NCBI GenBank assembly: GCA_002691145.1
Contig: NZHE01000011.1
Location: 1 to 38,170, forward strand
Direction of reading: 5' to 3'
Origin: Rickettsiales bacterium
Lineage (GTDB): Bacteria; Pseudomonadota; Alphaproteobacteria; Methylaequorales; Methylaequoraceae
Length of the DNA: 38,170 nt
Part shown: positions 23,030 through 28,687 of the stretch, piece by piece
Numbering within the stretch: position 1 is the stretch's first letter
How the letters are laid out: each line of letters opens with the position of its first letter
The notes under the pieces: generated by a model
Told to the model about the DNA's origin: nothing
Databases searched by the model: none
The model's input: the letters and a program-made list of their open reading frames with translations, nothing else
Made by a program: the position numbers and the translations under genes

Positions 23030-23398
23030 TTATTTAATTTGTACAGTACCGCCAACCTCTTCCAAGGCCTTTTTAATTTTATCTGCCTCGTCTTTGTCAA
23101 CACCGGTCTTCACTTCTTTTGGCAAGTCTTCTACAAATTTCTTGGCTTCTAATAAGCCTAAGTCTGTAAATTCTCGTACTTTCTTTAGCACAGGTATTTT
23201 AGAATTTTCAGCAAAACCTGTAAGAATTACATTCATTTCTGTTTTTGCTTCTTCAGTGGTATTGGCTACTGGCGCCGCCGCAGTTTGCAGACTGCTTACA
23301 TCTACTCCCCATGCTTCTTCTAATTTTTTGGCAAGTTCTCCCGCTTCAACTACTGTTAGTTGTCCTAGGTCTTTAATTAAATCGTCAATCTTTCCCAT
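23030..23398 (-). CDS. rplL: ribosomal protein bL12 (L7/L12), phage-encoded
   Basis: 122 residues, full length. N-terminal dimerisation domain IDDLIKDLGQLTVVEAGELAKKLEE (residues 4-28 in part), an Ala-rich hinge shorter than usual (AAAPVANTTEEA), and the C-terminal factor-binding domain with KIPVLKKVREFTDLGLLEAKK and EADKIKKALEEVGGTVQIK. bL12 recruits translation GTPases to the ribosome. Phage bL12 genes have been reported in marine viruses. It may exchange onto host ribosomes to favour phage translation (inference). It is the third gene of the operon from 23778, with its start inside the preceding small gene. Confidence 0.95.
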   Translation of the reverse strand: MGKIDDLIKDLGQLTVVEAGELAKKLEEAWGVDVSSLQTAAAPVANTTEEAKTEMNVILTGFAENSKIPVLKKVREFTDLGLLEAKKFVEDLPKEVKTGVDKDEADKIKKALEEVGGTVQIK

Positions 23399-23544: not shown

Positions 23545-23778
23545 CTATCTTCCTAATTTCTTCTTTCTACCCAATGGTACTTTTTGCATTCTAGCAATCT
23601 TTTGCCCTTTACGATTAGTGTACTCAACACTAATCTCGGTTGTTCCTTTTGGTAAAGATCCTTGAATGCTTTTAATTATCTTCTTGTAAGATAATCCCTC
23701 CTTGATTTCGGAAAATTCCTTCAGGTCGGTGACTTTGATTGATAATTTTCTTCTTGATTTTATATTTTCTGTCTGCAT
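23545..23778 (-). CDS. hypothetical basic protein, 77 aa
   Basis: A small basic protein (MQTENIKSRRKLSIKVTDLKEF...) ending RMQKVPLGRKKKLGR. The pattern of strands (TTEISVEYTNRKGQKIARM) suggests a small RNA- or ribosome-binding fold; it precedes bL12 in the same operon, which fits. It is not a clear bS21 or other known ribosomal protein. The -10 box ends 5 bases before the ATG, so its mRNA should lack a leader. Confidence 0.75.
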   Translation of the reverse strand: MQTENIKSRRKLSIKVTDLKEFSEIKEGLSYKKIIKSIQGSLPKGTTEISVEYTNRKGQKIARMQKVPLGRKKKLGR

Positions 23779-23783
23779 TCTAT

Positions 23784-23812
23784 ATACTAGACTATGATTG
23801 ACATTTTGTCAA
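23784..23812 (-). promoter_or_regulatory. host-type promoter (TTGACA-17-TAGTAT)
   Basis: On the minus strand, TTGACA (23812-23807), 17 bp, TAGTAT (23789-23784), 5 bases from ATG 23778. Its -35 is half of a palindrome whose other half faces the tmRNA gene. Confidence 0.6.
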
Positions 23813-23826
23813 GTATATGTTTAAAT
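23798..23826 (+). promoter_or_regulatory. possible host-type promoter for tmRNA (TTGACA-17-TTAAAT)
   Basis: TTGACA (23798-23803), 17 bp, TTAAAT (23821-23826; 4 of 6 matches). It overlaps the late box at 23822-23827, so the tmRNA gene may be expressed early and late. Confidence 0.5.
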
Positions 23827-23827
23827 A
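23822..23827 (+). promoter_or_regulatory. late promoter box TTAAATA upstream of tmRNA
   Basis: TAAATA at 23822-23827, a few bases before the expected acceptor piece. Confidence 0.55.
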
Positions 23828-23832
23828 CATTG

Positions 23833-24180
23833 TAGGCGTTGAAGTGATGAGATAGATTTGACGGACCTGGGGGCAGTACCCAGCACCTCCACCAAAACTA
23901 GGCTAGGTGGCTTATGTAATCCCTTCCGGGGGTGAATTAGGATCGACGTATTTTGAATGCATCATGGAGTTTATCAGTAAGATCTCTGTAAAAGGTCAAT
24001 TTTATAAATGCTAATAGAAAAGCATTAGGATTTGCCGACTTAACAGTTGGTATGTCCAAAATGAGATTAGCGGCCTAGTCCACTAATTTCGGGGTTGGCA
24101 ACTTACCTGGCAACAGAAAAGTTGCTTAATTAATTTCCAATAACACTCCATATATCCAATGTAGTGTCGTATTATTTGCA
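23833..24180 (+). ncRNA. ssrA: two-piece (circularly permuted) tmRNA
   Basis: Gene order is acceptor piece, spacer, coding piece, as in alphaproteobacterial tmRNA. The acceptor piece has a T-arm CTGGG-GGCAGTA-CCCAG (23867-23883), acceptor strand CACCTCC (23884-23890) and encoded ACCA (23891-23894). After a 33-base spacer the coding piece starts GGGGGTGAATTAGGATCGACG at 23928; GGGGGTG pairs fully with CACCTCC and gives the G3-U70 pair required by alanyl-tRNA synthetase. CATCAT (23960-23965) can pair with GTGATG (23844-23849) as helix P2. A tag frame runs 24010-24075, starting Ala-Asn (ANRKAL) and ending KMRLAA before TAG. Exact ends are uncertain. It rescues stalled ribosomes. Confidence 0.88.
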
Positions 24181-24220: not shown

Positions 24221-24517
24221 ATGGCTTCAAAAAAAGAAAGATTGGTTTGGTCCAAATTAAAAAAGAAGTCTCCGAAAGTTCCGGACATCACTTGTCCTGC
24301 GATTGACGAAGTTATCCAGAGGATAGAAGATATAGAATCGGGCAAAAGAAAACTGTCCAACAGAGCACTACACGTCATAATAAAAAAGTTAGAAAAGTTG
24401 AGAACCGCAAACGAAAAATTACGTGATAGTGGATACTACTGGCACCATGTTGCAAAAGATCTAGTAAAAGATTTTTATAGTAAGCCTAAACTAGGCAAAT
24501 TCAAATTCTGGAAATAA
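24221..24517 (+). CDS. hypothetical basic helical protein, 98 aa
   Basis: Starts at ATG 24221 (MASKKERLVWSKLKKK), 4 bases after the Shine-Dalgarno GGGAGG; an in-frame TTG at 24209 is inside that site. The product is helical (EVIQRIEDIESGKRKLSNRALHVIIKKLEKLR in part) and basic, ending KLGKFKFWK. It could bind nucleic acid. Not recognised. Confidence 0.78.
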   Translation: MASKKERLVWSKLKKKSPKVPDITCPAIDEVIQRIEDIESGKRKLSNRALHVIIKKLEKLRTANEKLRDSGYYWHHVAKDLVKDFYSKPKLGKFKFWK

Positions 24518-25093: not shown

Positions 25094-26173
25094 ATGAGTA
25101 AAGTTAAAATGCTTCTTGACGTAGTCAATGACGTAAAAAAAGAAGCACCAGAAGACGTGCCAAACTGGTCCAAAAGGTACGCAGAAGCAAAACAAAATTT
25201 AAAAAACCAATTAGAAAAAGGTAGACAACTTCCGTTAGGAACTGAAGCACACCCATTACAAGACTTTGCATTTAACTATTCTGTGCAACGTGATGTAAGA
25301 GCAGGACACGTGATGAACATAATGAAAAAGTTTGATCCAAGAGTGTGTTGTCCTGTATCAGCCGTGAGAAGATCAGATAGTAAAACTTTGTACATATTCG
25401 ACGGACAACACAGAGCAGTATCACTTGCATTACTAGGGTATGACAAGATACCTGTTACAATAGTTGAAACAGATGAACCGGCCTTTGATGCAGAAGCATT
25501 TGAAATAGTAAACGATTCAGGTATATTAAGAGCAGGCACAGAAGAAATACACAGATGTTTGTTGCATAGATACAAGATGGGTGAAACAGAAACTGAAAGG
25601 GTAGTGACTGCCCATAAGGTGCAAGAAATATTTGACAAGTGTGAAATTGATCTCGAACCAAAACGTGTGAGAAAGAGTCCAGGAAAGTGTGGACCTAACA
25701 AACACTACTTCTCACATTTTGATTACGCATACAAAGGTTTTAAGATGGCAGGTGAATATGGTCTGCTTGACGCATTACAATCAATAAAAAATACCTATGG
25801 TGATGAAGATGGTGGAGAGATCAATCAAGGACTTTTCATAGGATTGATGAAACAATATCAAATGGGTGCAGAGGCAAAAAGATTGAAGAGACTGCCTGTT
25901 GATTGGATGATAAAAATGTTAGAAGCATTGAAGAAAGGTTGCGGTGCTTCTGGTGTGCTGATTCATAGTGCTACAAAGAAACAATGGCAACACGCAAACG
26001 GTGTTGGTTGGGACGCACCAGTGGCAATGGCTCATTTACTTCGAGAGGTTTACCTAATAGAAGACGGAACCTATGAGCCAAGTTATATGCCTAATGTTAC
26101 ACTTAAATTGGAAGAAGGAGATATTGCTCCAGACTCAGAAGCACAAACGGCCTTTAACAAGTATGTCAAATAA
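25094..26173 (+). CDS. ParB/sulfiredoxin-fold (DGQHR) protein
   Basis: 359 residues. Around residues 97-120, TLYIFDGQHRAVSLALLGYDKIPVTIVE has the core of the ParB N-terminal/sulfiredoxin fold (DGQHR phosphate-binding loop then a strand). The preceding half has VQRDVRAGHVMNIMKKFDP. The C-terminal 200 residues are helical and I do not recognise them; no ParB HTH is clear. DGQHR folds occur in ParB CTPases, nucleases and DNA-modification regulators. AGGAG lies 8 bases before the ATG. It leads an operon with two nuclease-like proteins, which suggests a DNA-directed role. Confidence 0.75.
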   Translation: MSKVKMLLDVVNDVKKEAPEDVPNWSKRYAEAKQNLKNQLEKGRQLPLGTEAHPLQDFAFNYSVQRDVRAGHVMNIMKKFDPRVCCPVSAVRRSDSKTLYIFDGQHRAVSLALLGYDKIPVTIVETDEPAFDAEAFEIVNDSGILRAGTEEIHRCLLHRYKMGETETERVVTAHKVQEIFDKCEIDLEPKRVRKSPGKCGPNKHYFSHFDYAYKGFKMAGEYGLLDALQSIKNTYGDEDGGEINQGLFIGLMKQYQMGAEAKRLKRLPVDWMIKMLEALKKGCGASGVLIHSATKKQWQHANGVGWDAPVAMAHLLREVYLIEDGTYEPSYMPNVTLKLEEGDIAPDSEAQTAFNKYVK

Positions 26174-27232: not shown

Positions 27233-28687
27233 ATGCCGATACAAAACAAAAAAGATGAACAAATTGTAAAAGAACGTTTTGATTCAGACTACAAAGCAGG
27301 CTTCACGACAAATGTGGAATCAAATACTTTGCCTCCTGGACTGAATGAAGATGTTGTGGCAAAAATTTCAAAAATGAAGAATGAGCCTGATTGGCTTTTA
27401 CAATATAGATTAAAAGCATACAGAAGATGGAAAGTTCTTAAACAACCGGATTGGAGTACTTTAGAAATTGATCCGATTGACTATCAATCTATCTCATATT
27501 ATAGTGCCCCAAAGCCTAAACTTAAATCCATGGACGAAGTTGATCCTGAAGTACTTAAAACATTTGATAAACTTGGGATACCCACACAAGAGAGAGCGGC
27601 ATTGGCCGGAGTGGCCGTTGATGCAGTCTTCGACTCTGTATCAGTTGCAACAACTTACAAAGAAGAATTAGGTAAGTTAGGAATCATATTTTGTTCGTTC
27701 TCAGATGCGGTCAAGGACCATCCTGAATTAGTTAAGAAATATCTAGGTTCCGTGATTCCATTATCGGACAATTACTTTGCAACATTAAATTCTGCCGTTT
27801 TCACAGATGGATCATTTGTTTATATTCCTAAGGGAGTAAGGTGTCCTATGGAACTTTCTACATATTTTAGAATAAATGCTACGAACACAGGACAATTTGA
27901 AAGGACTTTGATTGTAGCAGAAGAAGGAAGTTATGTCAGTTACCTAGAAGGTTGCACTGCACCGATGAGAGATGAAAATCAATTACACGCGGCCAATGTT
28001 GAATTGGTTGCAATGGACAATGCAGAGATAAAATATTCAACAATACAAAATTGGTATCCGGGCGATCCTGTAACAGGAAAAGGCGGCATCTATAATTTTG
28101 TTACTAAAAGAGGTTTGTGTAAAGGCTACAAATCAAAAATAACTTGGACACAATTTGAAACTGGCAGTAGATTGACATGGAAGTACCCAAGTTGTATCTT
28201 AAAAGGAGATAGTTCAATTGGAGAATTTTATTCTGTTGCATTGACCAACGGTAGACAACAAGCAGACACCGGAACAAAGATGATACATCTAGGCAAGAAC
28301 ACAAAGTCAACTATCATATCAAAAGGTATATCAGCAGGAAAATCAAAAAACACATACAGAGGTTTGGTAAACATCATGCCAAAGGCCTCAGGTGCAGTAA
28401 ATCACACTGCTTGTGATTCGCTCATGATGGGAAGTGGTTGCGGAGCAATAACTGTTCCATATATAGAAAATAAAAATAAATCTAGCAGTATTAATCACGA
28501 AGCAACAACATCAAAAGTAAGTGACGAACAATTATTCTATTGTAAACAAAGAGGACTAAATGAAAATGATGCGACCAATATGATTGTATCAGGTTTTTGC
28601 AAAGAAGTATTCCAAAAACTGCCAATGGAATTTGCAATGGAAGCCAATAAATTGTTAGAGGTGTCCATGGAAGGCTCAGTAGGCTAA
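27233..28687 (+). CDS. sufB: Fe-S cluster scaffold protein SufB, full length
   Basis: 484 residues, the usual length. The SufB beta-helix carries [19 protein letters not shown] (Cys near residue 241, the position of E. coli Cys254), [20 protein letters not shown] (Cys near 394, the position of Cys405) and NHEATTSK (His/Glu near 422-423, positions of His433/Glu434). All residues needed for sulfur transfer and cluster building appear kept. SufB works in a SufBC2D complex, and no SufC, SufD or SufS is in this window, so it should use host partners. Fifth auxiliary gene in the operon from 24990, 4 bases after the HNH-like gene. Confidence 0.95.

Follow-up and report, generated by a model that had tools for sequence, protein, structure and literature searches.

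The window analysed here, a stretch of 38,170 nucleotides corresponding to bases 1-38170 of the 46,675-bp contig C5 in an alphaproteobacterial assembly (2.03 Mb, 29 contigs), carries at 23832-24125 (+ strand) a genuine permuted, two-piece tmRNA of a clade of marine T4-like phages. A tmRNA releases stalled ribosomes and labels the incomplete protein for degradation. In this one the structure is conserved among viral relatives, the tag is under selection and there is linkage with phage genes for the unfoldase ClpX and, usually, the adaptor ClpS of the pathway that degrades tagged proteins. On balance, we regard it as a working phage tmRNA, the tagged products of which would most likely be passed to the phage ClpX operating with host ClpP.

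Rfam models, ARAGORN and direct reading of the sequence agreed on the identity of the locus, and bore out the original prediction of a phage permuted two-piece tmRNA with encoded CCA and a G3-U70 pair. The Infernal check suggested with that prediction gave, by cmscan, a match to RF01849 (alpha_tmRNA) at 23775-24128 (+) over the full model (1-355), with 109.9 bits against a gathering cut-off of 50 (E 2.5e-29), and RF04321 (tmRNA_permuted) matched at 23832-24042 with 96.2 bits (gathering cut-off 47). ARAGORN independently reported a permuted tmRNA at 23802-24169 with the tag ANRKALGFADLTVGMSKMRLAA. The gene order is permuted, an acceptor piece being followed by an intervening segment and then by the coding piece, all on the + strand. 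The acceptor piece (23832-23894), the start of which is that of the RF04321 match and which is further marked by covarying helices, comprises the 5' strands of P2, the T arm CTGGG-GGCAGTA-CCCAG (23867-23883), the acceptor 3' strand CACCTCC (23884-23890), the discriminator A (23891) and the encoded CCA (23892-23894). Beyond the intervening segment (23895-23927), in which GTGGCTTATGTAATCCCTTCC is kept in most relatives, lies the coding piece (23928-24125; delimited by Rfam and covariation) with the acceptor 5' strand GGGGGTG (23928-23934), the 3' strands of P2, the tag and a 3' stem, GCAACTT ... AAGTTGC, around the conserved CCTGGCAACAGAA (24098-24125). The 7-bp acceptor helix is complete and includes the G3-U70 pair (U at 23888), which was kept in 36 of 36 relatives. 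Because the GCAACTT/AAGTTGC stem occupies 24098-24125, the structured 3' end of the tmRNA is placed at about 24125; the locus first put at 23822-24180 was right, but its ends were not, as the acceptor piece begins some 10 nt later and the structured part stops earlier.

The genes of C5 are of the T4-like marine phage type (nrdA, nrdB, exonuclease, tail and PAAR proteins, DNA ligase), and the best match of its nrdA by both coverage and identity is that of phage Mosig (69%). A viral contig in IMG/VR is identical to C5 in size and in the sequence of this region, while the annotated phage collection gave no match for the window tmRNA or its tag peptide. Around the tmRNA lie p102, a small protein encoded downstream (24221-24517, +) and a conserved neighbour in the clade; a ParB-like protein (25094-26173); a phage-borne SufB for Fe-S cluster assembly (27233-28687, +; SUFBD_core, E 1e-77), with a DUF1289 protein after it; and, on the other side, ribosomal protein bL12 (23030-23398, -; Pfam PF00542, E 2.2e-25), which occurs in only 4 clade loci. 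We refer to the alphaproteobacterial genome binned with the phage as the host, although it may be either the infected host or a mere bin partner. The assembly holds three alpha-type tmRNAs, namely that of C5, the host's own on C15, with the short tag ANDNEMALAA, and one on C3, tagged ANKRALGFADLTLLLPSKTELRLAA, from a further version of this phage region. The C3 version represents either another phage strain or a contig of chimeric origin; it matches C5 almost exactly from SufB onwards, and at C3:11302-14834 the tmRNA cassette is flanked on either side by diverged inverted copies of the ParB-like gene, p102 and related genes.

The location of the contig within a bacterial assembly, together with the frequent use of ssrA genes as integration sites, could suggest that a host gene or a non-functional remnant had come to lie on a phage-like contig through an assembly or binning error. 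We give this next to no credence: the host has its own tmRNA elsewhere, scoring far better (185.5 bits, compared with 109.9 for that of the window), and the window version is met with again on many viral contigs, in the same position between phage genes and with covariation, which refutes such a reading. A search with the tRNA-like-domain pattern alone returned 54 viral contigs, 13 of which, the window's contig included, carried tags of the ALGFADLT type, with a further group bearing ANKRFVSEVKIPSNFVVGRELLAA. A search by tag pattern returned 48 viral contigs, and the single match to this pattern in 84,980 species genomes was itself on a phage contig, binned with Pelagibacter. When the neighbouring ParB-like gene was used as the query, 23 loci were found and the tmRNA was present in 21 of them, one of the two others ending at a contig edge; within the clade the tag hardly varied (21 of the 22 contigs with flanks that this neighbouring gene retrieved).

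Covariation was assessed in 36 distinct viral sequences and on nested helices only. In the acceptor, T and P2 helices 96.4% of cells were paired, compared with 35-46% when the helices were slid along the alignment, and the covariation score was 0.703 against at most 0.107 in the slid controls. Both partners had changed in 23 of 30 helix pairs, and the three P2 helices that link the two pieces, for which covariation in relatives had been named as decisive, showed such changes in 17 of 18 pairs. The T arm and the acceptor 3' strand were 100% paired in the 36 sequences, with both-sided changes in 4 of 5 T-arm pairs, and the 3' stem likewise showed both-sided changes in relatives. On the strength of the both-sided changes, the pairing above slid controls and the covariation score, the structure is no chance product; the minimum-energy fold of the tmRNA (z -2.6) is less telling than the covariation. 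Among the ALGFADLT tmRNAs two kinds of T loop occur (alignment A2, columns 94-110), the alpha-type GGCAGTA and the canonical TTCAAAT/TTCGACT, which gives the impression of a swap of the tRNA-like part.

The tag reading frame, with its stop TAG at 24076-24078, spans 24010-24078 (+); its 22 codons at 24010-24075 are exactly those first proposed, ARAGORN gives the identical peptide, and the frame has alanine first, a hydrophobic C-terminus and a stop codon. As also anticipated, this tag exceeds that of the binned alphaproteobacterial genome in length and differs from it in sequence (22 residues compared with ANDNEMALAA), starting with ANRK, ANKR or ANKK in place of ANDN and retaining the C-terminal LAA. 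In Caulobacter and E. coli, SspB binds a stretch of the tag that takes in ANDN, with which the host tag begins. Since the search pattern had fixed core residues, tag conservation in the 48-contig scan was partly circular and was set aside, and it was recomputed on 26 contigs that had been retrieved without regard to the tag, by way of the tRNA-like domain or a neighbouring gene. In this set the core ALGFADLT and the end RLAA together showed 11 synonymous and 0 nonsynonymous changes, where a synonymous share of about 28% was expected (P ~9e-7, by a simple binomial on minimal changes), while variation was found at N-terminal positions 2-4 and in the middle of the tag. The core ALGFADLT...RLAA was seen on viral contigs only, among the viral contigs and the 84,980 species genomes searched. 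In these sequence comparisons the core of the tag peptide is shown to be under selection and virus-only. Other tags were also met with: the ANKRFVSEVKIPSNFVVGRELLAA group comprises L023, L031, L051, L054 and L059, and on G036, the longest of its contigs, ClpS and ClpP are encoded, with no ClpX over the cut-off; L013, L014, L046 and L019 have unusually long viral tags ending in ALAASA and SLAV (ARAGORN).

A hairpin within the tag frame (24028-24057, +; GGATTTGCCGAC ... GTTGGTATGTCC) bears on how this conservation should be read. It appears in the minimum-energy fold and was paired in 96.6% of cells, compared with 24-62% when slid (36 sequences), with a covariation of 0.30 against at most 0.073, and so the interior of the tag might be conserved for this RNA element and not for the peptide. 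The hairpin could account for some of the conservation of the tag and some of the constraint on it; as the whole explanation we consider it unlikely. Its variation is mainly one-sided or G-U exchange, with both-sided changes in only 2 of 9 pairs, and changes were synonymous only (3:0 in each case) also in the codons D-L-T of the hairpin loop and in RLAA, which lies outside the hairpin. The intact frame bears equally on a decoy role, in which the phage tmRNA would compete for host SmpB and alanyl-tRNA synthetase and so block host trans-translation. A precedent for this exists in the tag-less (CDS-less) tmRNA of phage DS6A, which is reported to inhibit endogenous tmRNA (cited in PMC11915505). 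In the present case, however, nothing is missing from the reading frame, stop, resume-codon region or LAA end, all of which are under selection, and we hold a decoy to be very improbable.

Upstream of the tmRNA we found a sigma70-like promoter at 23798-23826 (+), with TTGACA (23798-23803), a 17-nt spacer and TTAAAT (23821-23826). The pattern TTGAC-N-T(A/T)(A/T)AAT, with a spacer of 16-18, recurred in 31 of 35 distinct relatives, compared with 0.08 expected in shuffles. The T4-type late promoter originally suggested for the tmRNA had to be given up in its favour: the late box TATAAATA was absent before the tmRNA both in the window and in all 35 relatives (0/35), and the TATAAATA boxes found elsewhere in the window (12978, 21363 and 24528) stand directly before other genes. 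The -35 box is overlain by an operator-like palindrome, TTGACATTTTGTCAA (23798-23812), and TTGAC-N5-GTCAA was found in 24 of 35 relatives against 0.01 in shuffles. This palindrome lies between the tmRNA and p77, a small basic protein encoded divergently (23545-23778, -) and found on the opposite strand upstream of the tmRNA in nearly all clade loci with sequence reaching that far. The C-terminal end of p77 reads (P)xGRKKK(L/I)GR (alignment A3, 33 sequences); the family had no match in Pfam or PHROGs, and a middling structural model (pLDDT 71, pTM 0.57) gave no Foldseek match at E 0.001 or better. We suspect p77 of regulating or serving the tmRNA. The cassette of tmRNA and p77 (23545-24125) occurs in both orientations relative to its flanks, 24 of the 49 clade loci being as in the window and 25 inverted, and starred branches of the tmRNA tree force at least 5 changes of orientation.

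A complete ClpX is encoded on C5 directly beyond the window (41299-42543), with 533 bits against NF003745 (cut-off 359) and 501.9 bits against TIGR00382 (cut-off 370.75), and with its zinc-binding domain and its pore, RKH and IGF loop motifs present. Next to it are bS21 (C5:42503-42814), Hsp20 and a ClpS-domain protein (C5:43474-43785), which scored 96.9 bits against Pfam PF02617 (cut-off 23) and stayed under the NCBIfam equivalog cut-offs (for example, 92.8 of 149). Across the clade ClpX exceeded the NCBIfam cut-off on 14 contigs, that is, on all 12 whose sequence extends more than 20 kb past the tmRNA in that direction and on two shorter ones; every contig lacking ClpX reaches less than 18 kb in this direction. 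ClpS was present on 12 of the ALGFADLT contigs tested (the window's contig and 11 more). Within the tag family, an outlier contig has ClpP instead of ClpX, its ClpX side being cut off. The phage proteins are 47-52% identical to host ClpX, and the pore, RKH and ClpP-docking loops (GYVG, (I/L)TRDVSGEGVQQ, GGRKHP and (I/M)GF) are intact in 14 of 14.

Since these phages carry a ClpX of their own with these three kinds of loop, as well as ClpS, the tagged proteins would most likely go to the phage ClpX; the pairing of tag and ClpX is one that we infer. The idea in the original prediction that the phage tag might redirect tagged proteins draws indirect support from the phage ClpX and ClpS, which lay outside the sequence then available. 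Against it stand the distance between ClpX and the tmRNA, 12-22 kb and once 10.6 kb, with no common operon, and the many host-like genes that T4-like phages hold. Moreover, the contact loops of phage ClpX resemble those of the host enzyme, so that sequence proves no preference for the phage tag, and the phage ClpX should read the host tag too. It is possible, although we rather doubt it, that this is an ordinary supplementary tmRNA, giving extra ribosome rescue while host messages are destroyed and relying on host proteases, with tag and phage ClpX unrelated to each other. Roles of this kind have been proposed (PMC9004378), the conserved LAA is also read by host ClpX, and some two-piece phage tmRNAs have no Clp genes linked to them, such as that of phage Mosig, in the record of which neither ClpS nor ClpP was found; such a role nevertheless leaves unexplained both the invariant peptide interior of a tag of 22-25 residues and the presence of ClpX on every contig long enough.

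For a working phage tmRNA coupled to the phage ClpX, the following course of events can be proposed. The early-type promoter would drive a permuted precursor, which, judging from its anatomy, would be cut by host tRNA-processing enzymes into an acceptor and a coding piece. The G3-U70 pair would direct charging with alanine, and host SmpB, proposed here because SmpB was found on none of the 19 viral records searched and once in the host genome (which also encodes one SspB), would carry the charged phage tmRNA into stalled ribosomes. The phage-specific tag (A)NRKALGFADLTVGMSKMRLAA would then be appended to the unfinished protein during infection. With its ClpX-read C-terminal LAA, and without the ANDN start that SspB adaptors are expected to grip, this tag would pass the protein to phage ClpX and host ClpP. 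More tentatively, these phages might run a trans-translation branch of their own, in which the phage-only tag is read by phage ClpX on host ClpP, ClpS steers other Clp substrates, and the proteins of stalled ribosomes are removed or spared on the phage's terms, bypassing the host SspB/ClpX route; we put this forward as a single joint proposal in which our confidence is limited.

Phage tmRNAs have been catalogued for years and their purpose has never been demonstrated. The selected, virus-only tag and the linkage with ClpX make the question of why a phage should carry a tmRNA a specific one, namely whether phage ClpX prefers the phage tag. Should it do so, the virus would bring both a degron and the matching unfoldase, and might furnish an orthogonal tag-protease pair; if phage ClpX has no such preference, the invariant core of the tag is still to be explained.

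The novelty of a phage two-piece tmRNA as a kind was overstated in the original prediction, such genes having been described in 2022 (PMC9004378), when 53 were counted, 50 of them from marine or aquatic samples; a tmRNA was found in about 2% of phages at large (402 of 18,146). Since ClpX, ClpP and ClpS have each been described from jumbo phages (PMC7824862), none of the components is new in itself. What is new is the virus-only tag core with synonymous-only change, the company of ClpX and ClpS and the pairing with a divergent p77. A conserved phage-specific tag in the company of ClpX and ClpS within one clade was not found in the literature searched, which covered few subscription journals, and neither the tag core nor the phrase 'phage-encoded ClpX' appeared in any published text of that literature.

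Jumbo phages such as Bacillus phage G and Agrobacterium phage Atu_ph07 (PMC7824862) also carry a full-length ClpX, although these are unrelated large phages, and the same review proposes for ClpX a role as translocase or in virion assembly, trans-translation being unmentioned. Four of 5 ClpX-bearing jumbo phages tested outside the clade also had a tmRNA over the Rfam cut-off, compared with the roughly 2% given above for phages at large, which is only suggestive because jumbo phages generally carry more RNA genes. The ClpX-bearing jumbo phage Phosso of Sinorhizobium (PV764938) has a permuted tmRNA at 349596-350198 (113.3 bits, spanning about 600 nt). Pseudomonas phage pf16 likewise encodes a part of the SsrA-degradation pathway, in its case the adaptor SspB, without a phage tmRNA (PMC5587285). 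With the alphaproteobacterial two-piece tmRNA (RF01849; Caulobacter ssrA), the window tmRNA shares the permuted order, the T loop GGCAGTA, G3-U70, the CCA and the 3' CCTGGCAACAGAA, and differs from it in the length and sequence of the tag and in belonging to a virus-only clade. Close parallels are Methylophilales phage Melnitz and Pelagibacter phage Mosig EXVC030M (MT647606), marine T4-like myoviruses with nrdA/nrdB and, as here, a permuted alpha-type tmRNA. That of Melnitz was reported downstream of an early promoter (PMC9004378), the full text of that paper making no mention of Clp proteins; a glutamine riboswitch reported there for Melnitz had no counterpart among the Rfam matches in the window. 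In Mosig, a 411-aa AAA protein considered as a ClpX was rejected as CobS-like. Unlike the clade described here, with its ClpX and ClpS, the Mosig record yielded neither ClpS nor ClpP, and its tag is a short one of 9 residues, GEDNFALAA, in contrast to the 22 residues with a phage-only conserved core found here.
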